The translations under genes and the position numbers were made by a program. A DNA stretch of 64,000 nucleotides from Arthrobacter sp. MYb213. GTDB taxonomy: Bacteria; Actinomycetota; Actinomycetes; Actinomycetales; Micrococcaceae. Below are positions 47,078 through 58,997 of the stretch, one piece after another; position 1 is the first letter of the stretch, and every line of letters starts with the position of its first letter. Below the pieces are notes generated by a model. It was given only the letters and a program-made list of their open reading frames with translations, did not search any database and was not told the DNA's origin. The DNA is taken from the NCBI RefSeq assembly GCF_002979915.1, contig NZ_PCQA01000001.1, positions 434,001 through 498,000 of the forward strand, in the 5' to 3' direction.

Positions 47078-47161
47078 GCGCGGGTGGCGGAATAGGTAGA
47101 CGCGCTAGCTTGAGGTGCTAGTCCTCGCAAGGGGGTGGGGGTTCAAGTCCCCTTTCGCGCA
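47078..47161 (+). tRNA. tRNA-Leu (anticodon GAG)
   Basis: 84 bases. Acceptor GCGCGGG pairs with TTCGCGC (two G-U), the anticodon arm CTAGC-TTGAGGT-GCTAG gives anticodon GAG, a long variable arm TCCTCGCAAGGGGGT makes it class II, and GGGGG-TTCAAGT-CCCCT is the T arm. No CCA is encoded. The 3' end (from 47140) is repeated at 58028, which marks the gene as the probable integration site of the downstream island. Confidence 0.93.
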
Positions 47162-47240
47162 CAGGTAGAAACCCCGGTTGACTTCGGTCAACCGGGGTTT
47201 TCTTTTACCCATATTGACCGGAACGCCAAATCCGCTGACA
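47140..47240 (+). repeat. Left copy of the island's flanking direct repeat (putative att)
   Basis: About 101 bases starting in the tRNA T arm, running through the discriminator, the terminator and the following GACCGGAACGCCAAAT. The right copy is at 58028-58129 with about 90% identity, judged by eye. Direct duplication of a tRNA 3' end is the standard mark of site-specific integration. Confidence 0.82.
47169..47200 (+). terminator. Terminator of tRNA-Leu
   Basis: Perfect 14-bp stem AAACCCCGGTTGAC / GTCAACCGGGGTTT capped by TTCG, followed by TCTTTT. A nearly identical hairpin sits in the right repeat copy. Confidence 0.93.
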
Positions 47241-47313
47241 TGGGTTGACACCACGACGGCTTGACCAGCCCGGAGGTGGTGCGGACTCTTTGTTGGAGTC
47301 TTTCTCTTTTAAG

Positions 47314-48190
47314 CTACCTGAGCCCGATACTCAGCTCACCGAGCGAAACCTTGACTCGTTCATTGTTGTAAAACTCGGCTTATTCGTTGACCGCTGCCTC
47401 CAACTCGGCAGCGTCTGGCCACGAACGGAAGTAGAACATCTCGGTCTTGAGCCTGCCGAAGAATCCTCCAGACGCCGAATTGTCCGGCGAGCACCCTTTC
47501 TTGGACATTGATCTAGTCAAATTCTCAGTGCGTGTCATCGTAATCCAGGAGTTGGACCGATAGTGCGTTCCTCGGTCAGAATGTATGACCAGTTCCCGCT
47601 CGCGATCTGGTCGCTAAAACGCCAAGGCATCTTTCAACGCGTTCTCGGCAAGATCCATTGTGGGATGCCTTCCCGTCTTCCAACCCACCACCATACCGTC
47701 GTAGCAATCAATAATGGCTGAGAGATACAGCTTGCCGTTGTGGGCCGAGAATTCGCTGATGTCGGTCAGCCAAAGTTCTCCCGGATTGGCGGCATGAAAA
47801 TTGCGTCGGACCAAGTTCTCCGGAGCAGGCGTTGTTTCACCCTCATAGCTGGAATACCGGCGCTTTCTGGCAGCGAAGCGCACCTCGATACATTCTTCAT
47901 GCATCAAACGCCTCACGACCTTCTCACTAACGGCCAACCCCTCGTGACGCAATGTCCACCAGATGCGCCTATACCCATAAGTGAAGAAGCTACGTTTCGC
48001 GTGATAATGGATCCGATCGCGCACGTGTGCGTACGGGTCTGGCCGGCCCATGGCCTTGACTTGGTAATAGAAAATCGAGGTGCTCAACCCGATTGTTTCA
48101 AGGAGCATGGGCAGAGGATATGAACTTCGCAGAGCGTCAACTACCAGGGTTTTCTGACGATTGTTCAGATGCCCGGGCAGGATGCTCTCG
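47314..48190 (-). pseudogene. IS3-family transposase orfB (DDE integrase), inactivated
   Basis: Reading through in one frame gives a complete rve/DDE transposase: YGYRRIWWTLRHEG, then ELWLTDISEF (first Asp), IIDCYDGMVVGW, then LVIHSDRGTHY (second Asp), and NSASGGFFGRLKTE with the terminal Glu position altered. An in-frame TAG at 47614-47616 and a TAA near 47380 break it. The piece 47614-48108 alone would make 164 residues without the catalytic second Asp, so it is not functional. Confidence 0.82.
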
Positions 48191-48191
48191 T

Positions 48192-48675
48192 CTTTTTTAT
48201 CAGCGTCAGCTCCTCATCGAGCAGAGCCTTGTCCAGCAGGACTTGTGCTGCCAGTTTTCGCAGCTCTGCTGGGTCCTTGGGCAAGGAAGATTCTAATGAG
48301 GACCGGGTTGGGAACCCCGGTCTGTTCTGCGTTCTTTCTTGCTCATCAATCCCCACCGACCTGATTCACGGAAGATTTGCGCCCACGCATACACATTCAT
48401 ATGGCTCTTGAAGTTCAAGCGTTCAGCTATTTCTGGTGGGCGCAGGCCTTCGCTGAGCAATTGGACTGCTTCTAACTTAACAGTCCAAGGTAGCGACGTA
48501 AGGTCTTGGACTGTTTCTTGGGTTTACTGCCACTTTTAAGTGGCTCGCGAATTCATTTATGCAAGGTCCAGCGTCCGGGGTAACCGAGGTTTCGGACGGG
48601 CTTCGTGATGGACTTAGTCCGCCGGAACTCGGCAACCGCTGCTTTGCGTTCTTCGAGGGTGTATCGACGATTCAT
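48192..48675 (-). pseudogene. IS3-family transposase orfA, inactivated
   Basis: Starts ATG at 48675 with MNRRYTLEERKAAVAEFRR, an HTH_Tnp-type beginning. It is broken by a TGA where Trp is expected (WTLHK-stop-IRE), then two frameshifts near 48505 and 48290. The C-terminal leucine-zipper-like part ELRKLAAQVLLDKALLDEEL and the frameshift site A-AAA-AAG are still readable. Confidence 0.75.
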
Positions 48676-48716
48676 GGGATCAAACCTTCCAGGTTTCGGT
48701 CTGCACCCCCCCATAC

Positions 48717-49058
48717 TTATGCACCGTCTAATTCAGATCCCCGTTTGATCAAATAATTACGCGTCGAACTTCCCGGATAAGAAATCGGAATCGATGCGCT
48801 CAGCTGTTTGCCTAGTTGCCCGAATGCGCCGTGTATCCAAGCACTTTCGTACATCGTCCACCAATCTCGATAAGTTTGCGCGATAGCTGACCTTCGATCA
48901 GCTAGGAGTGCTTCGAACTGATCCATCGGAACGCCTAACGGAATCTGGCTTACATTATCTTCAAGCTCCGACCATTGATCTTCCGGCGCCGGATATTTCG
49001 ATCCTCCAACCACTGCATCCAGATAGTAAAATCGCCCACCTGACCCATAATTTTTCAA
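48717..49058 (-). pseudogene. C-terminal fragment of a frameshifted HEPN-like protein
   Basis: 113-residue open frame with no good start codon (TTG at 49058 without a ribosome site). The same frame stays open upstream to about 49183, where it overlaps the end of the 49115-49420 gene in a different phase, reading ALAVWVGQVESQVWLPD just after that gene's stop. A single-base loss near 49115 would explain the split. It has WTMYESAWIHGAFGQLGK and ends at the IS3 right end, so its true C-terminus may be lost to the insertion. No family recognised. Confidence 0.55.
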
Positions 49059-49114
49059 GATAGAGAATAAGTCTGGAAGCCATACTTGAGATTCAACTTG
49101 CCCGACCCAAACAG

Positions 49115-49420
49115 CTAGCGCTTGTTCCTTTCCGTGGCTTGGTGGGAAGTTATGAAACGCCGGGCTTTGGGTTCAAGTTCGTCGAGTTTATGACTAAACG
49201 CTTTGATCTTTTTCGCTGGCCATTCGCCTGTCTCGTAGTGAGTCCCCAGTCCATACGCGATCTTGATTAGTTTTTCGGCAGCTAATGCCAAACAAGCGAA
49301 CATGCCGGCGCTATCATAGTGCTGGTCTTTCATTTCTTCGAGCAGCTTGAGCCCCGCTTCTGCCAATTGCACAGCGTTGTTAGCTTCTTGGGTTAGGGCA
49401 GGCATGTTGATAGATTGCAT
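49115..49420 (-). CDS. HEPN-like small protein (N-terminal part of a split gene)
   Basis: 101 residues, nearly all helical: NNAVQLAEAGLKLLEEMKD, ACLALAAEKLIKIAYG and SHKLDELEPKARRF. The pattern resembles HEPN or nucleotidyltransferase-partner proteins, although the catalytic RxxxxxH motif is not clear. It directly follows the 241-residue membrane protein (TAG then ATG). A downstream reading frame in another phase looks like its continuation, so this is probably the front part of a longer protein or a frameshift-dependent product. Confidence 0.5.
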   Translation of the reverse strand: MQSINMPALTQEANNAVQLAEAGLKLLEEMKDQHYDSAGMFACLALAAEKLIKIAYGLGTHYETGEWPAKKIKAFSHKLDELEPKARRFITSHQATERNKR

Positions 49421-50146
49421 CTAATGTGATTCCGAATCGTCTAAATTATCTGATGTTTCGTGTTCACGATAACGGCCATCTGCAATATGGAACCACCGGT
49501 CATGCTTTTTACGCACGCGATCTCCAAAGTCGCCCAACGATACTGTGAATTGGTCCATATCGATTTCTCCGCGTGAAAGTTCCGCGACCCAGTTGCAGAA
49601 TTCAGAATAGCCGGCGTCTAGTACTCGCAGAGCGCCTTCAATTTCGAGGTCTTTGTATGATGCTGCCCTTGCCAGCAGTACAAGGCTGGTTGCGAAACGG
49701 TCGATTCTGCGTCGTTCGTGAGTTTTGAATTCCCAAATGAGATTATATTGAACCGTTGCTTTTCTTACGGTCGATGAAACGCGAATAACTTCGTCCTGGG
49801 ATTCTTTGGTTGCCGTTATTAGGTCAGCGAACGCAGAAACCATTCCCATGGTGGCCGTGTCAACTCTTACCTGATGTGCTTGGTTTTCCTTCTGGGTGAC
49901 TTCTACGTCGAATCGTCGCAGGGACTCTACCTGGTCATCTTTCAATGCCTTGAATGATTTAGCTGCATATGCGCCCGCGACCACGGCGGCAGCCAGAAGT
50001 CCAAGAGTGAAGAAGGCTGTCATCCACGTTGCGAGATCACCCAACACCAAGTAATTGTCTGGTGCTGTTCCTGCACAATAGAGCACACTGTCTTTGACAG
50101 AAGTAGCACCGGGAATTTGGCATTCGAATTGTTCAGCAGTGGTCAT
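49421..50146 (-). CDS. Hypothetical membrane-anchored helical protein
   Basis: 241 residues. One membrane helix at about 38-62 (ATWMTAFFTLGLLAAAVVAG), then a long cytosolic helical domain: LKDDQVESLRRFDVEVTQKENQ and RKKHDRWFHIAD. No enzyme motif. Its stop TAG touches the ATG of the HEPN-like gene, so the two are one transcript. Membrane protein plus HEPN-like partner on an integrated island suggests a defence or toxin role, which is inference. Confidence 0.65.
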   Translation of the reverse strand: MTTAEQFECQIPGATSVKDSVLYCAGTAPDNYLVLGDLATWMTAFFTLGLLAAAVVAGAYAAKSFKALKDDQVESLRRFDVEVTQKENQAHQVRVDTATMGMVSAFADLITATKESQDEVIRVSSTVRKATVQYNLIWEFKTHERRRIDRFATSLVLLARAASYKDLEIEGALRVLDAGYSEFCNWVAELSRGEIDMDQFTVSLGDFGDRVRKKHDRWFHIADGRYREHETSDNLDDSESH

Positions 50147-50308
50147 TCCTACATCTTATGGTTTGATCGACACATGGTCCTTTAGTTAACGTGCTTTATC
50201 TGTATACGATTTCTCCGGAAATTTAACAGTAAACTTATGAATTGCCTTTAGTCATGGGGCTCGCCAAACTAAGAGTTGGTACTCACTCGCAATCCTTCAG
50301 AAGGACTC

Positions 50309-51229
50309 ATGGACAACTTTCCTAGCCCCATCGCGCCCGATCGACCGACAAAACAGAAGAAGCCCGGAATGGGGAAACTAGGTTGGATCGTCTTGGCCGT
50401 AGTCATCGTAGCGGTCATCGCACTTATGATCGCCCTACCAGAGCTAGTCTTCGCACTGAGTTTTCTCGGCATCATCGCGGCATTAATCGGCATCATCATT
50501 GGACGCCTCCCTTGGCTACGAGGACGTAAACGAAACGCGAAGTTCGGCGGCTTAATGGTTTTGCTGTTCGTCGCGTCCGCCATCACCGGCTCGTCCCAGT
50601 ATGCTGCTAAGAATCCCGCGCCTGCTGTTGCAGAGACGATGGTAATTAGCAGTGAGTCACCTAGTCCTACCCCCTCAGAGCCTCCTTCCCCTACCGCTAT
50701 TGCTGATTTTGTCGGTCAGGAGTGCAAGGGTGACGAGTTGGTCATGGAACAGGGTGCTGAAAAGCTCTATTGCGACGCAAGTGCGACTGGTGTTCTTGCC
50801 TGGGCTAACCAGGATGATCATGACAAAACTATTCTGGCTGCTAAGAAAGTAGCCGAAGAAAAAGCGGCGAAGGAAAAAGTGGCGCAGGAAAAAGCAGCTG
50901 CCGCAAAGAAAGCCCAAGAAAAAGCTGTAGCTGACAAAAAAGTTGCAGAAGAGAAAGCAGCGGAAAAGAAAGCCACTGAAAAAGCCGCAGCTAAAAAGGC
51001 AGAGCAGAAAGCCGAAGCAAAACGCATTGCTGCGCAGGAGGAAGCTGCTCGTATCGCTGAGCAAGAAGCCATCGAAGAAGCCTACGAAGCACCAGCCCCG
51101 GCACCGGTCAGCGCGTACTACGCTAACTGCAGTGAAGTACGATCGGCTGGAGCAGCGCCTATCTATAGCGTTGATCCAGGTTATTCACGCAAACTGGATC
51201 GTGATGGTGACGGCGTAGCTTGCGAATAA
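50309..51229 (+). CDS. Membrane protein with coiled coil and C-terminal excalibur domain
   Basis: 306 residues from the ATG at 50309 (AAGGA upstream). Two N-terminal helices (about 22-44 and 46-64) and a third near 82-96, then a Ser/Pro linker, a short WANQDDHDKT segment, and some 80 residues of Ala-Lys-Glu coiled coil (about 185-268). It ends in an excalibur domain with YYANCSEVRSAGAAPI and the calcium loop DRDGDGVACE. Excalibur domains often accompany extracellular nucleases, and the next gene is one. The last ten bases overlap that gene. Confidence 0.82.
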   Translation: MDNFPSPIAPDRPTKQKKPGMGKLGWIVLAVVIVAVIALMIALPELVFALSFLGIIAALIGIIIGRLPWLRGRKRNAKFGGLMVLLFVASAITGSSQYAAKNPAPAVAETMVISSESPSPTPSEPPSPTAIADFVGQECKGDELVMEQGAEKLYCDASATGVLAWANQDDHDKTILAAKKVAEEKAAKEKVAQEKAAAAKKAQEKAVADKKVAEEKAAEKKATEKAAAKKAEQKAEAKRIAAQEEAARIAEQEAIEEAYEAPAPAPVSAYYANCSEVRSAGAAPIYSVDPGYSRKLDRDGDGVACE

Positions 51230-52053
51230 AAAGTCGCTTTATCGGGCTCGCTTTGGTGAGTTTGCTGTTGGTTGGTTGCGGGTCAACCGCCGGCAACGCA
51301 CCGTTAGTGCCGGAAGTTTCAGCTGATGTGGTCAAACCGGCTGAGATTGTCATTCGTACCGAGGCGCCGCCGATCATTGTCAGGACGGAAGCGCCTACTG
51401 TTGCACCGGAAGCTCCGAAGACGGAACCGGATCTTCCCAGCGCTTCTGTACTGTCCAAGCCTCATGCACCTAAGGCGAAGAAAAACAGTGCAACTTCCGG
51501 AGCACTCGGACTGTTGGATGAGATACCGGTAAAGGGCCGCGCGCCCAAGACTGGTTACGACCGTGACCTGTTCGGAAGTGGTTGGGGTGATCCGGACCGG
51601 AATGGTTGCGATGCTCGTAACGACATTCTCGACCGTGACCTTGATGTGCACACCTATAAGGCTGGCACCAGGGAGTGCGTTGTTCTCACCGGCAACCTTC
51701 TGGACCCTTTCACTGGGAAGACTATTGAGTTCCAGCGTGGGCAAGGCACGAGCAATGCCGTGCAGATTGACCATGTTGTGGCGCTCTCTGACGCGTGGCA
51801 GAAGGGTGCACAACAACTCTCGCCAGAGCGTCGAGTAGCGTTCTCCAATGACCCCTTGAACTTATTAGCAGTGGACGGTCCAACCAACGCATCCAAAGGC
51901 GACAGCGACGCCGCAACGTGGCTACCACCAAACCGCGGGTACTGGTGCGAATACGTCACCCACCAGGTCGAAGTAAAACACAAATATGACCTCTGGATGA
52001 CCAAAGCAGAACATCGGGCATCTCAGCAAGTCCTCTCAGACAAATGCAAGTAG
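51220..52053 (+). CDS. Secreted HNH nuclease lipoprotein (DUF1524/GmrSD type)
   Basis: 277 residues. A lipoprotein signal ends LLVGC (Cys20); a Pro/Glu/Thr-rich spacer of about 70 residues follows; the C-terminal domain carries the HNH motif QIDHVVALSDAWQKG (about 186-200), NDPLNLLAVDGPTNASKGD and DAATWLPPN, typical of DUF1524. It should be an extracellular, lipid-anchored endonuclease. The TTG start overlaps the excalibur gene by ten bases; no ATG or GTG fits. The pair probably acts on external DNA (inference). Confidence 0.85.
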   Translation: MRIKSRFIGLALVSLLLVGCGSTAGNAPLVPEVSADVVKPAEIVIRTEAPPIIVRTEAPTVAPEAPKTEPDLPSASVLSKPHAPKAKKNSATSGALGLLDEIPVKGRAPKTGYDRDLFGSGWGDPDRNGCDARNDILDRDLDVHTYKAGTRECVVLTGNLLDPFTGKTIEFQRGQGTSNAVQIDHVVALSDAWQKGAQQLSPERRVAFSNDPLNLLAVDGPTNASKGDSDAATWLPPNRGYWCEYVTHQVEVKHKYDLWMTKAEHRASQQVLSDKCK

Positions 52054-52153
52054 GCACACTCCCTATTTGACACGTGGATAGCTATCGAACGTAACTCAAC
52101 AACAGCATCAACTACGCACGAACTCCTAAATATAATCAGAAAGAAGCTTGCTC

Positions 52154-53080
52154 ATGGCAAATCCAACACCAACCTCTCAGCCTAAGAAAGCCGACGCGAC
52201 AAACGATGTGGGGAAGACTAAATCTGTGTTCGTGATTTCGCCGATCGGTTCGCAGGGAACTGAAGGTTACAGAAAGGCCAAGCTGTGTTTGGATTTCATT
52301 ATCAAGAAAGCCTTGCCTGAGTCAGTTTGGGAAGTTACGAGGGGTGACGGTTCGCTGTCTCCAGATTCAATTGGTCACGACATTATTGAACGGATCGACA
52401 AAGCGGATTTGATAATCGCTGATTTGACTGATCAGAATCCCAACGTGTTTTACGAACTTGCAATAGCGCACGGCTGGGAGAAGCCTGTTATTCACATCAT
52501 TGAAAGCGGTCAGCCAATCCCTTTCGATGTCGCTGACCTTCGGACGATTCCCTACGATCTGTCAGACCCAGAGTCCGTGGATTCAGCAATAACAGCAATT
52601 TCGGGTATTGCAGCCAATATATTCTCTACTGCTTACCAACCGAAAACTCCACTGACACAATTCAACGCGTTTAAAAGGGCCAAAGGATCATTAGATCCAG
52701 AATCAGCTCAGGCCGAGATCAACGAGCAAATATTAAGTCGCTTGGTTTCGATTGAACTTTCGTTGCGTCCGAATCTGGGAACTCGAGCCATGGATAGTTC
52801 AGGTCGAGTTTTGTCATCTGCAAAATTCGCTAAAAGACTGCAAGGCGAGTCAACCTTTATGTCCGGGCCTGATCATGGGATGAGGGAGTTTATTGAGCTC
52901 TCACGTGAGCTCGACCCGCGTCATCCTGATTTCGACATGATGTCGTCTACGGTTCCAGCAAAGCTCAAAAAATGGCAGATCATGTGGGAGTTATTGTCCG
53001 TTCAAGAACAAGAAGCCGTCAAGAATATCCTTGAGAAGTCTGGAATTTCTGTTCCCCCTTTCCGTCTCAGCAAGGACTAG
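52154..53080 (+). CDS. TIR/deoxyribosyltransferase-like fold protein
   Basis: About 308 residues. The N-terminal domain SVFVISPIGSQGTEGYRK (about 24-41), ADLIIADLTDQNPNVFYELAIAH and KPVIHII has the nucleoside 2-deoxyribosyltransferase/TIR-like layout, with the catalytic-type Glu in FYEL. The C-terminal part (from about 170) is helical. Such proteins are often nucleotide-handling effectors in bacterial defence islands, some cleaving NAD. This function is inference; no partner gene of a named system is adjacent. Start with AAGAAG upstream. Confidence 0.7.
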   Translation: MANPTPTSQPKKADATNDVGKTKSVFVISPIGSQGTEGYRKAKLCLDFIIKKALPESVWEVTRGDGSLSPDSIGHDIIERIDKADLIIADLTDQNPNVFYELAIAHGWEKPVIHIIESGQPIPFDVADLRTIPYDLSDPESVDSAITAISGIAANIFSTAYQPKTPLTQFNAFKRAKGSLDPESAQAEINEQILSRLVSIELSLRPNLGTRAMDSSGRVLSSAKFAKRLQGESTFMSGPDHGMREFIELSRELDPRHPDFDMMSSTVPAKLKKWQIMWELLSVQEQEAVKNILEKSGISVPPFRLSKD

Positions 53081-53163
53081 ACCATTCCATGTCCGTTAGC
53101 TTAGAGGCATCGACTTTATGCGACGTGTAGGACTGGTAACTCACGATGCGATTAAATACGTGT

Positions 53164-53192
53164 AGTGGGCGAGGTATACCACCCCGCCCACT
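53164..53192. terminator. Hairpin between TIR-like gene and the convergent pseudogene
   Basis: AGTGGGCG (53164-53171) pairs with CGCCCACT (53185-53192) around a loop containing GGTATACC. Likely a terminator for the genes facing it. Confidence 0.6.
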
Positions 53193-53204
53193 GTTAGTTA
53201 GTTG

Positions 53205-53606
53205 TTAGTTCCAGTCGTAGGACAGCAACGGGGTGTACCCGTCGAGTTCGTTGGCGCCTGGTACGCGGATGATCTTGATCTTTTCTCCTTCGTTCTCTGT
53301 TCCGTTGTCGGTCCAGTCGAGTTTGAAGCTGTACACGGCTACGTTGAGGCCGGCTGGTTCGGTGCCGTTGATTTCTTTGTAGTAGCGTTTCGCCGCGTCT
53401 AGCGCTTGGGCGCTGTCGGTTGTTCCGGCGATGCGTAGAACGTTGTCGTCGTCTTCCCATACTTGGATGCCGATGGTGGCTCAGGCGCTGCTGATGGTGT
53501 GGCATGAGCCGAGTTCGGTCCGGGTGTGGATGTGTCCGTTGAACGCGTCGTCGTTGGGCTGGATCTTTTCGTTGCAGTTCGAGCAGGTAATGAACAAGGT
53601 AATCAC
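53205..53606 (-). pseudogene. Zinc-ribbon protein with in-frame stop
   Basis: Reading on from the GTG at 53606, the frame has CSNCNEKIQPNDDAFNGH, then ELGSCHTISSA, a TGA at 53481-53483, and then a long sensible tail (ATIGIQVWEDDDNVLRIAG, DAAKRYYKEINGTEPAG, KIIRVPGANELDGYTP) to TAA at 53205. The tail has no start codon of its own near the stop. One nonsense change has therefore probably killed a gene of about 133 residues. Function unknown; a phage-type origin is possible. Confidence 0.6.
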
Positions 53607-54079
53607 CTTTTGTTTCAGGGGTCCCGCAGGATCGGTTTCTGAGCTTCCAGGTTGGGGCTCTGAATGTATGTGTGGGGCACTCGAAAGCCCGCTCACGCGA
53701 AAAGCCGTATTTCATCGTGATTACGATCACTCTGAAATCACATTCGGGCACCGAACAGTCCACAACTCATCCATCAGCTGACCATGGGGCCGGAAATACT
53801 GACACCTGTGACTAAACCTGTGGATAAAGTCAGACGAAAACTTCAACTATTGGCACACGTGACTCAACAGGAACGAGATTTAGATTGGTCAAAATCTGCA
53901 GGATGCATACTTCTCAGACCTGCAAAACCCCAATTTTCGAAGAAACAAGGGCTCAGGTTGGGATCCATGGCACGAACGATGAAAAGGGACATCATCAAAC
54001 TTTTTATGCTGCCGGGGTTTCGTTGCACAGTTCGGATACCTGGTCGAAAAAGGTACGTTATCTCGGAGTCGAACGTGCC
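53607..54079. other. Spacer between the pseudogene and the DUF3800 gene
   Basis: Open frames run through it but lack start signals or motifs. The DUF3800 frame is open back to 53885, yet the extra part is unlike the family. It probably holds divergent promoters; none is clear by eye. Confidence 0.35.
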
Positions 54080-54859
54080 ATGATTAACGAATCACTTCAC
54101 CGCTTCGTAATGAATGGGGACCAAACTTTGACGCACGGTGCATTTATTGACGAATCAGAAAAGAACACGTCTCATTATTTTCTTGGTGCTTTAGTAATCA
54201 CCCAACAGCTATATCGGTCCTTGGCAGAAAAGATGACCGCGATCCACGAGCAGGTCCTTCGCGACTACCCAAAGCTTCCAATGGACTTCGAATTTCACGG
54301 ATGGGAGTTCATGAGCGGTAAGAGAGTATGGCGCGGAGTACCCATCCGGTACCGTGTGGGCATTATGAACAAGATACTTACCGCTGTGGCCGAGTCCGGC
54401 GGGTGTGTTCATATTGAAGGTATTGACCGTGCGAAACACGCTGCACGTAAGTACAAAGATGAATTTCCGCCACGGGAAATTGCGTTCAACTACCTTTTTG
54501 AACGAATCGATGCTTGCCTTATTACTCGGTCGTTAGTTGATGGTGAACGGCCAGGCACTCGGGTTTTTGCTGACGAACACCACACCAAGACTGAAAGTAC
54601 TTCTAATTTTACGGATTATCAGCTTTATGGGACGTGGGGTTATAAATCTTCAAAACTCGGCTTACTACACCCCGAGATGACTTTCATGGATTCGAAGACA
54701 ACTTACGCTCTTCAAGCCATTGATTGCGTCACCTACATTTACAACAGGGTTAAAACGCATAAAGAAACTGATGAACGCGCACAACAGACAAAAAACAATT
54801 TTTGGGCTCTGATGCAGCCCATGTTCGTAGGTTGTGGATCACACCGAATTTGGCCTTAA
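54080..54859 (+). CDS. DUF3800 domain protein
   Basis: About 259 residues from the ATG at 54080 (GGAG about 11 bases upstream). The DUF3800 pattern is visible: AFIDESEKNTSHYFLGALVI (about 21-40), HGWEFMSGKRVW, VFADEHHTKTES with a second acidic cluster, and LQAIDCVTYIYNR. The Asp/Glu positions resemble a RNase H-like metal site. DUF3800 proteins are common in mobile and defence regions but have no settled function. Confidence 0.75.
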   Translation: MINESLHRFVMNGDQTLTHGAFIDESEKNTSHYFLGALVITQQLYRSLAEKMTAIHEQVLRDYPKLPMDFEFHGWEFMSGKRVWRGVPIRYRVGIMNKILTAVAESGGCVHIEGIDRAKHAARKYKDEFPPREIAFNYLFERIDACLITRSLVDGERPGTRVFADEHHTKTESTSNFTDYQLYGTWGYKSSKLGLLHPEMTFMDSKTTYALQAIDCVTYIYNRVKTHKETDERAQQTKNNFWALMQPMFVGCGSHRIWP

Positions 54860-55534
54860 GCACGAAGACCCCGTCAATGACAGGGCCTAAGGCAAGGTGG
54901 GAAGTTTCCTCCCTACACAACAATCCTCGCACATTTTTTTGGCACAACACAATGTGACTTTATCTACTCGTGGGTATCTTTGACTCACGTTGCGAGCATT
55001 ACCTTGGATCAATCCCGGCAATTTATCTATTGCACCGAAAAGTCGACCCCGAACTTCTTGAGGGAAGGTTCGGGGTCGACTTGTATGTACGGGACTGATG
55101 GCTCGGTTTGTTGGTTTCTCACTCGCATGGCGGAAATCACCGAATTGGCGGCATCCCTGAACACCAACACTTATCGTAACCCACCTTTAGGGGCACTGTA
55201 CTAGTTGTTGACACCTCATTTTGCATACGCCTGACACAGTACCGCTTACTATTCGTTACAGGTCAGCGACTGGATTGGTTATGAGTAAACTCTTCTTAAG
55301 TGGATCGCGAATCTAACCATTTTGCGGCCCTCGTCTACAATTCCACACCGTCCAGTGGTAGGCAGGGCTCTAACCTGTCTATCGTTATTGTGTCCACCAA
55401 TTCATGAATGTAACTGATCATTTTATCAAAATGTAGCCTCTAGCCTCGTCAAAAAAGAGAATTAGCAAGGCCACGAAATCCAGTCCATAATTAACGGACT
55501 CACTCGATAAATTAGCGTTCTAAATAGAGGAAGA
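54860..55534. other. 675-base spacer with a strong hairpin
   Basis: No convincing gene. It contains the hairpin at 55040-55082. Open frames such as the one at 54980-55204 look random. The region is AT-rich compared with core genes. Confidence 0.45.
55040..55082. terminator. Hairpin downstream of DUF3800 gene
   Basis: AAGTCGACCCCGAAC mirrors GTTCGGGGTCGACTT exactly around a 13-base loop. It is 180 bases past the DUF3800 stop, so it may belong to a lost gene. Confidence 0.6.
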
Positions 55535-56320
55535 ATGTCCACACACCCACTAGTTCGACTCGCCGAAGTCTACGAGCATCTGTATCTCGCGGCTCAGGAC
55601 AATGAACCGTCATACACCAGCCTGACCTACAAATGCCAACAAGCTTTAGGTCTACGAAATAACGAAACCATTTCGGTTGCAGCTGCTCGTAGTGCCCTAG
55701 AGGGCCAGTTAGTACTCGAAGCTTTTGTGACTGAACAGCCTATTGCTTCGAAATATTTGGATGCAGGCCATTTACTTGCAATCATGTGGGAAGCCACCCG
55801 TCTTCTGCGTACGGTCGAATCTCGACAAATTCTGGACGATGTAGAGATCAGCGACGCCAAACTACTGAGAATGGCGGCGTCAATGATGACCATGGGTGAG
55901 ACGCTAGCTCCTCCTGAGGCTCACCCCAATTTCGATTGGTTATTGGCGATACTTCAAGAAGTACAAACCGACCTGGATGAATCGTCTATTAGCGAGCAAA
56001 TGAAGTTGTCGATAAGGCGTCAGATTAATCAAACCGAGTTAATACTCGAACAAGATCCTGTGTCGCCAGAGTTGGTCATTCGTTACCTTGCCACATTGTC
56101 CGGTTTACTTAGCGCGGCTGCGCAATCAGAGCCCACGCCCTCGAAAGCTCGGCAGTTCATGAAGTGGTCTGTTCGTATCGCTGGCGGAATCATGATCGAT
56201 GCTTTAACTGGCGTTCCAGCCGTGTCGATCACCAATGCGATTCTGCTAGCCATTGATTCATCGGCTGGTACCGGCTTGGATGTTGAGCTTGAGGACCTAG
56301 GAGAAGCGTCCGGAGTATAG
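55535..56320 (+). CDS. Unknown 261-residue protein with hydrophobic C-terminus
   Basis: I do not recognise a family. GAGGAAG precedes the ATG. The first 200 residues are helical and mostly acidic (VYEHLYLAAQDNEPSY, EQMKLSIRRQINQTELILEQD). Residues about 213-245 (IAGGIMIDALTGVPAVSITNAILLA) are hydrophobic and could insert in a membrane. It has no neighbours on its strand. Likely island cargo; a toxin or effector is possible but unsupported. Confidence 0.65.
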   Translation: MSTHPLVRLAEVYEHLYLAAQDNEPSYTSLTYKCQQALGLRNNETISVAAARSALEGQLVLEAFVTEQPIASKYLDAGHLLAIMWEATRLLRTVESRQILDDVEISDAKLLRMAASMMTMGETLAPPEAHPNFDWLLAILQEVQTDLDESSISEQMKLSIRRQINQTELILEQDPVSPELVIRYLATLSGLLSAAAQSEPTPSKARQFMKWSVRIAGGIMIDALTGVPAVSITNAILLAIDSSAGTGLDVELEDLGEASGV

Positions 56321-56339
56321 CGGCATCGGATAATTCGGG

Positions 56340-56403
56340 CCGGCACCTACGGAGTCTTCCACGACAGGATGTCTCCTGGATATTCTTGCTGTGTAGGTGC
56401 CGG
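56340..56403. repeat. Inverted repeat CCGGCACCTAC / GTAGGTGCCGG
   Basis: 11-bp perfect arms at 56340-56350 and 56393-56403, 42 bases apart, just after the 261-residue gene. Possibly a terminator for convergent genes or a structured RNA. Confidence 0.45.
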
Positions 56404-56467
56404 TCATTAGTCTAAGTTGTGTTCAATGAATCACCCGGTAATCCGTGCGATCCCTATTTCGGTGCTC

Positions 56468-56692
56468 CTATCCGCGAGTTTCGAAAACTTTCCACCCGCC
56501 ACCTCTCGATAAAAGTGGCTTCATGCGCGGGTTGCGGATTACCGCGTTATCCCGGTTATCTATCAGGTCGTGGTACCGGCAGTGGCCGTGGTTCAGCATC
56601 ATTCGCCATTCGGCGTATCGGTTCGTGTTTATCCATTTCGACCGGTTCCTGAACTCGCTCGCACGCTGAAACTGGTACAGGAGCCTAGGCAT
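56468..56692 (-). CDS. Phage-type small protein, 74 residues
   Basis: Strong site GGGGAGGGGAG just before ATG at 56692. The protein is basic: NRSKWINTNRYAEWRMMLNHG, ending GGGWKVFETRG. It overlaps the end of the Cys-rich gene by eight bases in another frame. Together with the next four or five upstream genes it forms a packed minus-strand cluster of tiny genes typical of phage early regions. Function unknown. Confidence 0.6.
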   Translation of the reverse strand: MPRLLYQFQRASEFRNRSKWINTNRYAEWRMMLNHGHCRYHDLIDNRDNAVIRNPRMKPLLSRGGGWKVFETRG

Positions 56693-56807
56693 GCTCCCCT
56701 CCCCGGCGCAAGAAGTTGGATAGCTCGTCGCAAGCTGACTGACACTCGTCGCAGGTGTCGTAGTTGCCTGGTTCGCAGCCACATGTCCAACCCTTGATGT
56801 TCAGCAC
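56685..56807 (-). CDS. 40-residue Cys-rich peptide, phage-type
   Basis: GTG start immediately after the TAA of the gene upstream. Cysteines in GWTCGCEPGNYDTCDECQSAC (about 6-26) fit a small zinc-ribbon peptide of the kind encoded in actinophage early regions. Its stop overlaps the next gene. Confidence 0.5.
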   Translation of the reverse strand: MLNIKGWTCGCEPGNYDTCDECQSACDELSNFLRRGGEHA

Positions 56808-57020
56808 TTACGGGGTAAAAGCTTCGACCACAGCGGGGGCAGGGGTGAAGCGTGCACGCAACCCTGGCAGTGCCGCCACGATGCAGTCACGTGATGCGCG
56901 GTAGTTTCGGACTGCCTCAGAGTCACTTCTCGCGCCCATCTTCACTCCGGCGATCACGGCAGCTTTGAGCGTTGGAGATCCTTGGACGATTTGCTCAGGG
57001 GTTAGTGGGTTGTCACTCAC
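56808..57020 (-). CDS. Phage-type small protein, 70 residues
   Basis: Begins MSDNPLTPEQIVQGSPTLKA, ends in a Pro/Ala stretch. ATG overlaps the preceding gene by eight bases. No family known to me; position and size fit a phage early gene. Confidence 0.55.
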   Translation of the reverse strand: MSDNPLTPEQIVQGSPTLKAAVIAGVKMGARSDSEAVRNYRASRDCIVAALPGLRARFTPAPAVVEAFTP

Positions 57021-57261
57021 TGGGATTCACTTCCTCGTATTTCCAGAGCACCGCGTCGGGGTATTCGTTTATTAGTTCAACTGGCGCGCATGGCTTCGGC
57101 GTGATCTGGTACTTGTCGAAGTCGTGATAACTGTCTTCGAGCCCGGAGGCGTTGACCCAATTGATAAGCCAGCAGTCATGACCCGCGGTGAGTTTGTGCT
57201 CCCCGGCGTGGTCTCGGCAGCCCTTTGCGCTCCACTCTTCGGGCTCGCAGCTTGGTCTCAT
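57013..57261 (-). CDS. Phage-type small protein, 82 residues
   Basis: Starts ATG inside the previous gene's stop (ATGA overlap). It contains CRDHAGEHKLTAGHDCW and a C-terminal acidic part LINEYPDAVLWKYEEV. Cys/His residues might bind a metal. Function unknown. Confidence 0.55.
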   Translation of the reverse strand: MRPSCEPEEWSAKGCRDHAGEHKLTAGHDCWLINWVNASGLEDSYHDFDKYQITPKPCAPVELINEYPDAVLWKYEEVNPSE

Positions 57262-57551
57262 GCGACACTTGGCATCTGTCGGAGCGGTGCACTCAACACT
57301 GAGCCCATCGACGCTGATCTTGTGCTCACTCGTTCCCCTGGCCCCATTCCTAATCTCTTGTAGATGGTTTCCATGTCGTAGTCAGTGTTGGAGTTCGCGG
57401 TGAGAGTTGCCAACGCGATTAGGTTCGCTGACCTCTGCTCGTATGCGAGTGCGAGGGTGGCTTGGGCGATCGTCCAGTCTCCGTCGTTCTCACCCTCGTG
57501 TGGGCTGACGTGTGACGCGGTACCGCACGGGTTGCCGGGTAGGTTGCTCAT
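57258..57551 (-). CDS. Phage-type small protein, 97 residues
   Basis: ATG overlaps the end of the frameshifted gene upstream (AATGAG). It has DWTIAQATLALAYEQRSANLIAL and LTANSNTDYDMETIYKRLG, a small helical protein. No recognised family. Confidence 0.55.
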   Translation of the reverse strand: MSNLPGNPCGTASHVSPHEGENDGDWTIAQATLALAYEQRSANLIALATLTANSNTDYDMETIYKRLGMGPGERVSTRSASMGSVLSAPLRQMPSVA

Positions 57552-57816
57552 TTGGTTTCCTCGAAATCGATTGGTTTGGACTTCTCCACGGTGACTTCAA
57601 TGACCCAACCTGCAGCGATTTCTTCGACAATCTGCAAAAGGGGCGACTCCCCGAAAGGTCAACCTTGCCGGAGTACCAGTGCTTGCGGTTGCCTACGAGG
57701 ACTTCGGCGAGGTCGTCAGGTACATCGGCTGTGCCGGTGAGGTTGATTTGTTCGGCGAGGTCGTGGACAGCGGTGCCTCGTTTGGCTGCGGCGTCGCTGG
57801 GTTCAAGCTTGGCCAC
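57548..57816 (-). pseudogene. Phage-type gene with one-base deletion in a G tract
   Basis: GTG at 57816 gives MAKLEPSDAAAKRGTAVHDLAEQ, reading on to GKVDLSG. If one G is added to the run at 57649-57652, the frame continues ESPLLQIVEEIAAGWVIEVTVE to a TGA overlapping the next ATG, a natural fit. The observed frame instead gives odd sequence to 57490. Either a real mutation or a homopolymer sequencing error. RGTAVHDLAE is faintly like the start of RecB-type nuclease domains. Confidence 0.55.
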
Positions 57817-58027
57817 CAGAACGCTACAACATGAAACCCAAGGGTACGGAGTTGATCATTGCCCGTCTGCACGTTTAGAGGCATTGAAGTCCGGCATGTA
57901 GAAGACCCAAGTTTTCGGTCTTGACGCTGTCAACCAGAAACGCAACAACGGGCAACACACGTCAACAGTTTCCACAAGGAATCAACAATTAAATAGAGTC
58001 GTAACCGGCATGACTAGGCGAAACAGT

Positions 58028-58129
58028 GGTTCAAATCCCCTTTCTCGCACAGGTAGAACCCCGGTTGACTTCGGTCAACCGGGGTTTTTCTTTTTACCCA
58101 CATTGACCGGAACGCCAAATCTGCTGACA
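58028..58129 (+). repeat. Right copy of the island's flanking direct repeat (putative att)
   Basis: Begins GGTTCAAATCCCC, a tRNA-Leu T-arm and 3' end fragment, then the terminator hairpin (58057-58086 region) and CATTGACCGGAACGCCAAAT. Only the last 25 or so tRNA bases are present, so this is a truncated copy of the gene end at 47140. Several substitutions and indels show that the duplication is old. Confidence 0.82.
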
Positions 58130-58736: not shown

Positions 58737-58997
58737 ATGGGTTTCATTGGTTGGATTGTCTTGGGTCTTATTGCCGGTGCGATTGCAAAGGCAATCAAGC
58801 CAGGTAAGCAGGGTGGCGGCTGGATCGCTACGTTGGTACTTGGTGTTGTTGGCGCCATTGTTGGCGGCTGGATCGGCTCCGCGCTGTTTAGCGTTGACAT
58901 TAGCTCGTTCTGGTCGTTGTCGACATGGCTACTTGCAATCGGCGGTTCGTTGATTGTTCTCATTATCTGGGGATTCTTGACTCGCAAGAAGGCGTAA
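58737..58997 (+). CDS. GlsB/YeaQ/YmgE-family membrane protein
   Basis: 86 residues with three helices: GFIGWIVLGLIAGAIAKAI (2-20), GWIATLVLGVVGAIVGGWIGSAL and LLAIGGSLIVLIIWGF. The family is called stress-response or transglycosylase-associated. AGAGGA lies upstream of the ATG. A terminator follows directly, so it is transcribed alone. Confidence 0.92.
   Translation: MGFIGWIVLGLIAGAIAKAIKPGKQGGGWIATLVLGVVGAIVGGWIGSALFSVDISSFWSLSTWLLAIGGSLIVLIIWGFLTRKKA

Follow-up and report, generated by a model that had tools for sequence, protein, structure and literature searches.

An island beside tRNA-Leu(GAG) in Arthrobacter sp. MYb213 as the probable remnant of a temperate actinophage

The attachment sites of mycobacteriophages and of their hosts (attP and attB) typically share 30-45 bases that include the 3' half of a tRNA gene, and the tRNA is rebuilt at one junction, as described in PMC10865867. 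A stretch of 64,000 nucleotides from Arthrobacter sp. MYb213 (contig NZ_PCQA01000001.1, positions 434,001 to 498,000; here called the window) was found to carry an island of about 10.9 kb beside a tRNA-Leu(GAG) gene, which fits this tRNA-rebuilding scheme with a longer shared stretch. With a probability of about 0.86, the island is the remnant of a temperate actinophage integrated by a tyrosine integrase at the 3' end of the tRNA-Leu(GAG) gene. It resembles cryptic (defective) prophages at tRNA genes in having an intact tRNA on one side and a 3' fragment on the other, in that its phage early genes adjoin the fragment, and in that relatives show the empty site. It differs from them in that no integrase was found and no structural genes were recognised in it, and from the mycobacteriophages of PMC10865867 in sharing 101 bases rather than 30-45. 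The tRNA-dependent lysogeny treated there likewise involves actinophage integration at host tRNA genes, whereas here the host tRNA stays whole and the island is without a tRNA gene. The borders of the island are formed by three features, all on the plus strand.

47078-47162, plus strand: tRNA-Leu(GAG), intact, the host attachment-site gene (ARAGORN; site present in 17 of 17 relatives).
47140-47240, plus strand: left repeat copy (attL-like), comprising the T arm, the tRNA 3' end, a terminator-like hairpin and further bases.
58028-58129, plus strand: right repeat copy (attR-like), a tRNA fragment from the T arm onwards and a terminator-like hairpin.

The first-pass annotation of the window, made from the letters alone, had claimed that these two stretches are a direct repeat enclosing an element that used the tRNA 3' end as its attachment site. 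The repeat of 101 bases is borne out, the copies being 92% identical with small gaps. In a search of the whole 3.79-Mb genome, the second copy was returned at E 1.7e-35, which rules out a chance repeat; the next-best match elsewhere was a 43-base terminator-like stretch (E 2.2e-6). The tRNA-Leu(GAG) gene is the sole tRNA gene reported by ARAGORN in the window, and the repeat begins in its T arm and extends 78 bases beyond the tRNA, through the terminator-like hairpin. By eye, the 39 bases to the left of each copy show no mutual resemblance, and those before the right copy none to the tRNA, so the right copy is, to judge from its sequence, a fragment of the tRNA followed by the tRNA's own terminator-like hairpin. 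Plasmid records (four) and phage records (two) gave near matches to the island, all inside the first 138 bases of the query (tRNA and terminator). When genome contigs were scanned for the T-arm pattern, 11 stretches were found, each with a single match, and the attachment-site (att) pattern was matched in 30 of 290 family genomes, more than once only in the window's genome (2), G059 (3) and G082 (2). Paired tRNA-Leu 3'-end matches from another genus, at C1:63108 and 64672 in G059 (1.6 kb apart) and at C369:54 and 354 in G082 (300 bases), are possibly further insertions or tandem tRNAs.

Comparison with relatives covered 18 genomes of the Glutamicibacter group, 17 of them relatives of the window's genome, and about 20 kb around the tRNA-Leu site was compared in all 17. 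The site was found in every relative with a single copy of the tRNA 3' end at it, and the island was absent there from all 17; other matches to the tRNA 3' end in these genomes are other tRNA-Leu genes and short terminator-like pieces. The nearest relative, G. ardleyensis (G002), has the empty site with one repeat copy that the first-pass annotation had suggested looking for, with homology to both flanks of the window, in the order reductase, tRNA, repeat copy, 52 extra bases, the window's right flank and GlsB. This last is the first host gene to the right of the island:

58737-58997, plus strand: GlsB/YeaQ-type small membrane protein (name by eye), 96.5% identical at the empty site of G. ardleyensis.

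Core genes do lie on both sides, as had been claimed: an NRAMP-type gene, the tRNA and mshA are grouped in all 17 relatives, joined in 16 by the reductase-like gene. In four relatives (L060, L061, L062 and L064) the tRNA-Leu gene points in the opposite direction relative to its neighbours, a local inversion. Measured between tblastn match starts, the tRNA and mshA are 12.2 kb apart in the window and 6.8 kb apart in G. ardleyensis, and 0.2-2.3 kb separates them in the other 12 relatives whose tRNA has this orientation. Some island DNA was matched in 17 of the 18 genomes, mostly the GmrSD_C gene described below, and the longest island match outside the window's own genome in this set covers about 1.8 of 9.3 kb. 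The G+C content, whose measurement had also been suggested, is 0.511 in the island against 0.546 in the left and 0.567 in the right flank; it lies under the range of equally long left-flank stretches (0.520-0.561) and varies along the island from 0.466 to 0.559 per kb. Codon bias was examined solely as G+C by codon position.

An independent comparison was provided by viral contigs, and it involves one further gene of the island:

52148-53080, plus strand: TIR-like or deoxyribosyltransferase-like protein, frame intact, with phage-type relatives (phrog_3634, 9.5e-37).

A pattern running from the T arm to CAGG was scanned across 2.9 million viral contigs (the tool's description), and the only contig with the T-arm pattern was IMGVR_UViG_3300031088_000743, of 63 kb (63,444 bases). 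The tRNA-Leu fragment of this contig begins at the same T-arm base as the right copy in the window; its identity is 87% with the left copy (113 bases) and 85% with the right copy (106 bases). ARAGORN found no tRNA gene at the fragment. A gene for an integrase of the tyrosine type starts at base 1 of the contig, while at the other end a RecT-like gene (by eye), a YqaJ exonuclease gene and a gene for an HTH_17 protein (below the cut-off) precede the tRNA fragment. The contig thus shares with the island the T-arm start, minus-strand recombination genes near the fragment and a relative of the TIR-like protein (49% over residues 9-308), and differs from it in its length and in having an integrase as well as genes identified by eye as lysin and terminase. 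It looks like a provirus cut out at gene borders, the left att thus being missing; a search of its last kilobase against the fetched genus loci gave no convincing match to host DNA. As the shared att stretch and the shared TIR-like gene were found by separate searches, each supports the other. A 19-base pattern from downstream of the tRNA occurred in four viral contigs, all in contexts unlike the repeat.

The end of the island that adjoins the right copy bears out the claim of phage-like genes, although the PHROG matches are weak:

56808-57884, minus strand: actinophage early-gene fragments, namely an exonuclease-like piece, the C-terminus of a small gene, the start of a 97-aa gene and part of another.

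The open stretch 57493-57855 was matched weakly by exonuclease families (phrog_69, 0.008). In a phage-type region of G. ardleyensis, the beginning of this stretch has a counterpart (37%, E 6.9e-7) in a gene here called an exonuclease, for which the Pfam PDDEXK_1 match is no better than 0.17, and the end has one in the C-terminus of a small gene (78%). In the window the exonuclease-like piece runs into the small-gene C-terminus in one frame; in G. ardleyensis about 9 kb separates the two genes, whose order is the same, so that the join can be put down to a deletion. Relatives of the 97-aa gene, of which the start is present, are encoded in nine viral loci. The piece 57025-57352 is 74% identical over 108 aa to a gene in L094 and L095; here it abuts the 97-aa gene in another frame, and there it lies 2.9 kb away on the other side, so that this junction is a rearrangement and no plain deletion. 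A second provirus encodes a relative of the TIR-like protein (63% over residues 15-215) and, close to its integrase end, has a match to the exonuclease-like piece (E 7e-6); the tRNA-Leu repeat was found neither at its ends nor at the provirus ends of G297 and G298, whose records start and stop at gene borders. The L091 record, which also encodes a relative of the 97-aa gene, contains a 52% relative of the integrase from the att-bearing contig, and no match was found between the YqaJ exonuclease region of that contig and the exonuclease-like piece of the window. Elsewhere, in G006 (L068 3548-4896), an integrase gene stands directly after tRNA-Pro(CGG) and phage genes related to the window pieces follow about 5 kb on; this element is a prophage that sits at a different tRNA and belongs to the same gene pool. 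Just left of the fragments in the window, 85 bases (56712-56796) have an 81% match in a 16-kb record titled Pseudomonas phage Hadban.

With the rearranged early genes and a viral contig broken at the same tRNA base, the earlier suggestion of a phage or integrative element at a tRNA 3' end is supported and sharpened to a prophage. That suggestion included a lost integrase, and indeed no tyrosine integrase relic came to light: PF00589 gave three hits genome-wide, none of them in the island, and tblastn of three prophage integrases and of proteins from the window's own genome against the island reached a best E of only 0.056. Among the island proteins scanned, no phage structural genes were recognised. 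As no integrase was found beside the border, the element is called a remnant and not an active prophage.

On this basis a course of events can be proposed. The phage attachment site would have carried a copy of the tRNA end, and for this reason recombination would have preserved the entire tRNA on the left (attL), with a tRNA fragment and terminator remaining on the right (attR). The integrase gene, which stands first in the related provirus, at the end away from the attR-like fragment, would then have been lost together with the structural genes, and the early genes near attR would have collapsed through deletion and rearrangement. An IS3 element would have inserted near the left end, whereas the accessory genes (TIR-like, orphan and DUF3800) would have persisted. 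We infer the type of the integrase, the order of these losses and the arrival of the cargo in a single event.

The position of the crossover was considered from the bases at which the copies disagree. The two copies differ at 8 alignment columns. For G. ardleyensis 7 of these can be judged (neighbouring gap columns counted singly), and at all 7 it sides with the left copy; the viral contig shares the base of the left copy at 4 columns and that of the right at 2, and departs from both at the remaining 2. The crossover may thus have fallen beyond the terminator, or else in the T arm, with the right copy, freed from selection, taking most of the changes. Both copies also share changes that are absent from G. 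ardleyensis and from the viral contig (for example CAACC for CGATC and ATTGACC for GTTGACA), as would result from almost identical attP and attB sites or from sister copies. The 52 extra bases of G. ardleyensis follow AAATC downstream of the tRNA terminator (L007/L049) and are missing in both window copies and in the viral contig; part of this motif (GGGTTAAGTCCCAA) recurs at the tRNA-Leu site in G011. As the viral contig is without these bases too, an insertion in G. ardleyensis is a simpler explanation than a deletion common to both window copies.

The remaining features of the island are as follows.

47280-48710, minus strand: IS3-family remnant, with a transposase piece at 47614-48108 (outer limits set by eye).
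48717-49420, minus strand: two short frames in different registers, 49115-49420 and 48717-49058 (three-frame translation).
49421-50146, minus strand: 241-aa protein without family assignment (Pfam and PHROG scans).
50276-51229, plus strand: membrane-type protein (by eye) with a C-terminal Excalibur domain (Pfam PF05901, 3e-17).
51220-52053, plus strand: lipoprotein-like protein (by eye) with a GmrSD_C domain (Pfam PF07510, 7e-20), which pairs with the Excalibur gene.
53885-54859, plus strand: DUF3800 protein, domain from about residue 86 (Pfam PF12686, 2e-10).
55535-56320, plus strand: orphan protein, found in 2 of 295 family genomes including its own.

The IS3 remnant named in the first-pass annotation was recovered: the transposase piece scores 157.9 bits with NF033516, slightly below the cut-off of 160, and has Pfam HTH_21 and rve matches. 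No second copy of it was found in the genome, and no convincing terminal inverted repeats were seen. The two frames at 48717-49420 are probably one broken gene, for which no Pfam match above the cut-off was found. The Excalibur/GmrSD_C pair is also present in G. ardleyensis at 76% DNA identity, between GlsB and mshA and hence in the same tRNA-mshA interval, and five other genomes have both genes at other loci. As the 76% relative lies beyond GlsB and pairs occur elsewhere in the genus, this pair may not be phage cargo, and the whole left part (IS3 remnant, broken genes and the pair) may be a later accretion. In the GlsB-mshA interval of G. ardleyensis (L049 3518-8578, tRNA orientation), the pair stands beside XpaC- and TelA-like genes (names by eye). 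The region from the tRNA to mshA has the look of a gene-turnover hotspot.

Among the accessory genes, the TIR-like protein is matched by the PADLOC TIR effector model (3e-9, residues 64-134 only) and, below the cut-off, by Pfam Nuc_deoxyrib_tr (0.021). It has relatives on the two viral contigs named above and matches in 9 of 295 family genomes, at full length only in the window's own; no meaningful match to its alignment was found among solved structures. The DUF3800 protein matches RepA_C only at E 0.14, and the orphan protein has one weak relative (25%) in another genome, in a region that is phage-like by eye. The defence-type folds that had been proposed for the island find weak support in the TIR match, in the DUF3800 match and in the GmrSD_C protein, which is not a full GmrSD and reaches PADLOC PDC-M40B only at E 0.003.

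Other origins must be weighed against a prophage. A non-phage element, such as an actinomycete integrative and conjugative element (ICE) or a small genomic island, may have entered at the tRNA, the phage fragments arriving later. In its favour, phage origin cannot be recognised for the larger part of the 10.9 kb, the Excalibur/GmrSD_C pair is also found elsewhere in the genus, and long att repeats are known in actinomycete elements; set against this, the scanned proteins gave no replication, transfer (FtsK-like included) or relaxase families above the cut-off, no integrase was found, and the only viral contig with the att pattern bears an integrase and phage genes, so that such an origin is improbable. 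Still less credence is given to the repeat as a chance local duplication of the tRNA end and terminator, with the genes between coming separately. The changes common to both copies would be expected of sister duplicates, but an attP that co-evolved with the host lineage would share them likewise, and a local duplication accounts neither for the right fragment and the viral contig fragment beginning at the same T-arm base nor for the phage DNA in the island end that adjoins the right fragment. A composite island, which overlaps with the prophage explanation, is the most serious alternative and a real possibility, if short of even odds: the right part would be a prophage remnant, and the Excalibur/GmrSD_C pair, the IS3 piece and others would have come by other routes. 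The relative of the pair on the far side of GlsB and the G+C differences along the island favour it; everything, however, sits between two att-like copies, and the TIR-like and orphan genes have relatives in phage-type DNA. The whole 10.9 kb may have come as one element, or the pair and the IS3 piece may be separate arrivals.

Several observations weigh against an integrated phage as the source of the island. At every judgeable column G. ardleyensis agrees with the left copy, and a crossover inside the tRNA requires the changes to have fallen on the right one. The 31,634 of 63,444 contig bases that were compared share with the island only the att stretch and the TIR-like gene, and neither PF00589 nor tblastn recovered an integrase relic in the island. 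The shared stretch exceeds the length given as typical of mycobacteriophages in PMC10865867, the gene pair of L094 and L095 stands in the opposite order, so that the junction is not a plain deletion, and the pair relative beyond the core gene GlsB indicates that this part need not be phage cargo.

A search of the literature by title found no report of phage attachment at tRNA-Leu(GAG) in Glutamicibacter, which is weak evidence of absence. As a genomic scar, a decayed prophage at a tRNA is nothing out of the ordinary; the insertion site in this case is clear, and comparison brackets the attachment site cleanly, with one genome occupied, 17 empty and an independent provirus-like record broken at the same base. 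The case also singles out one intact gene of phage type, that of the TIR-like protein, which may be defensive. It is conceivable, though rather unlikely, that an actinophage lineage with an unusually long att repeat at tRNA-Leu(GAG) carries a TIR-like module for defence against superinfection and that the gene was kept intact here as a domesticated immunity gene, the other parts of the prophage having decayed. The locus suggests that phages of Glutamicibacter-like hosts use tRNA-Leu(GAG) as an attachment site.

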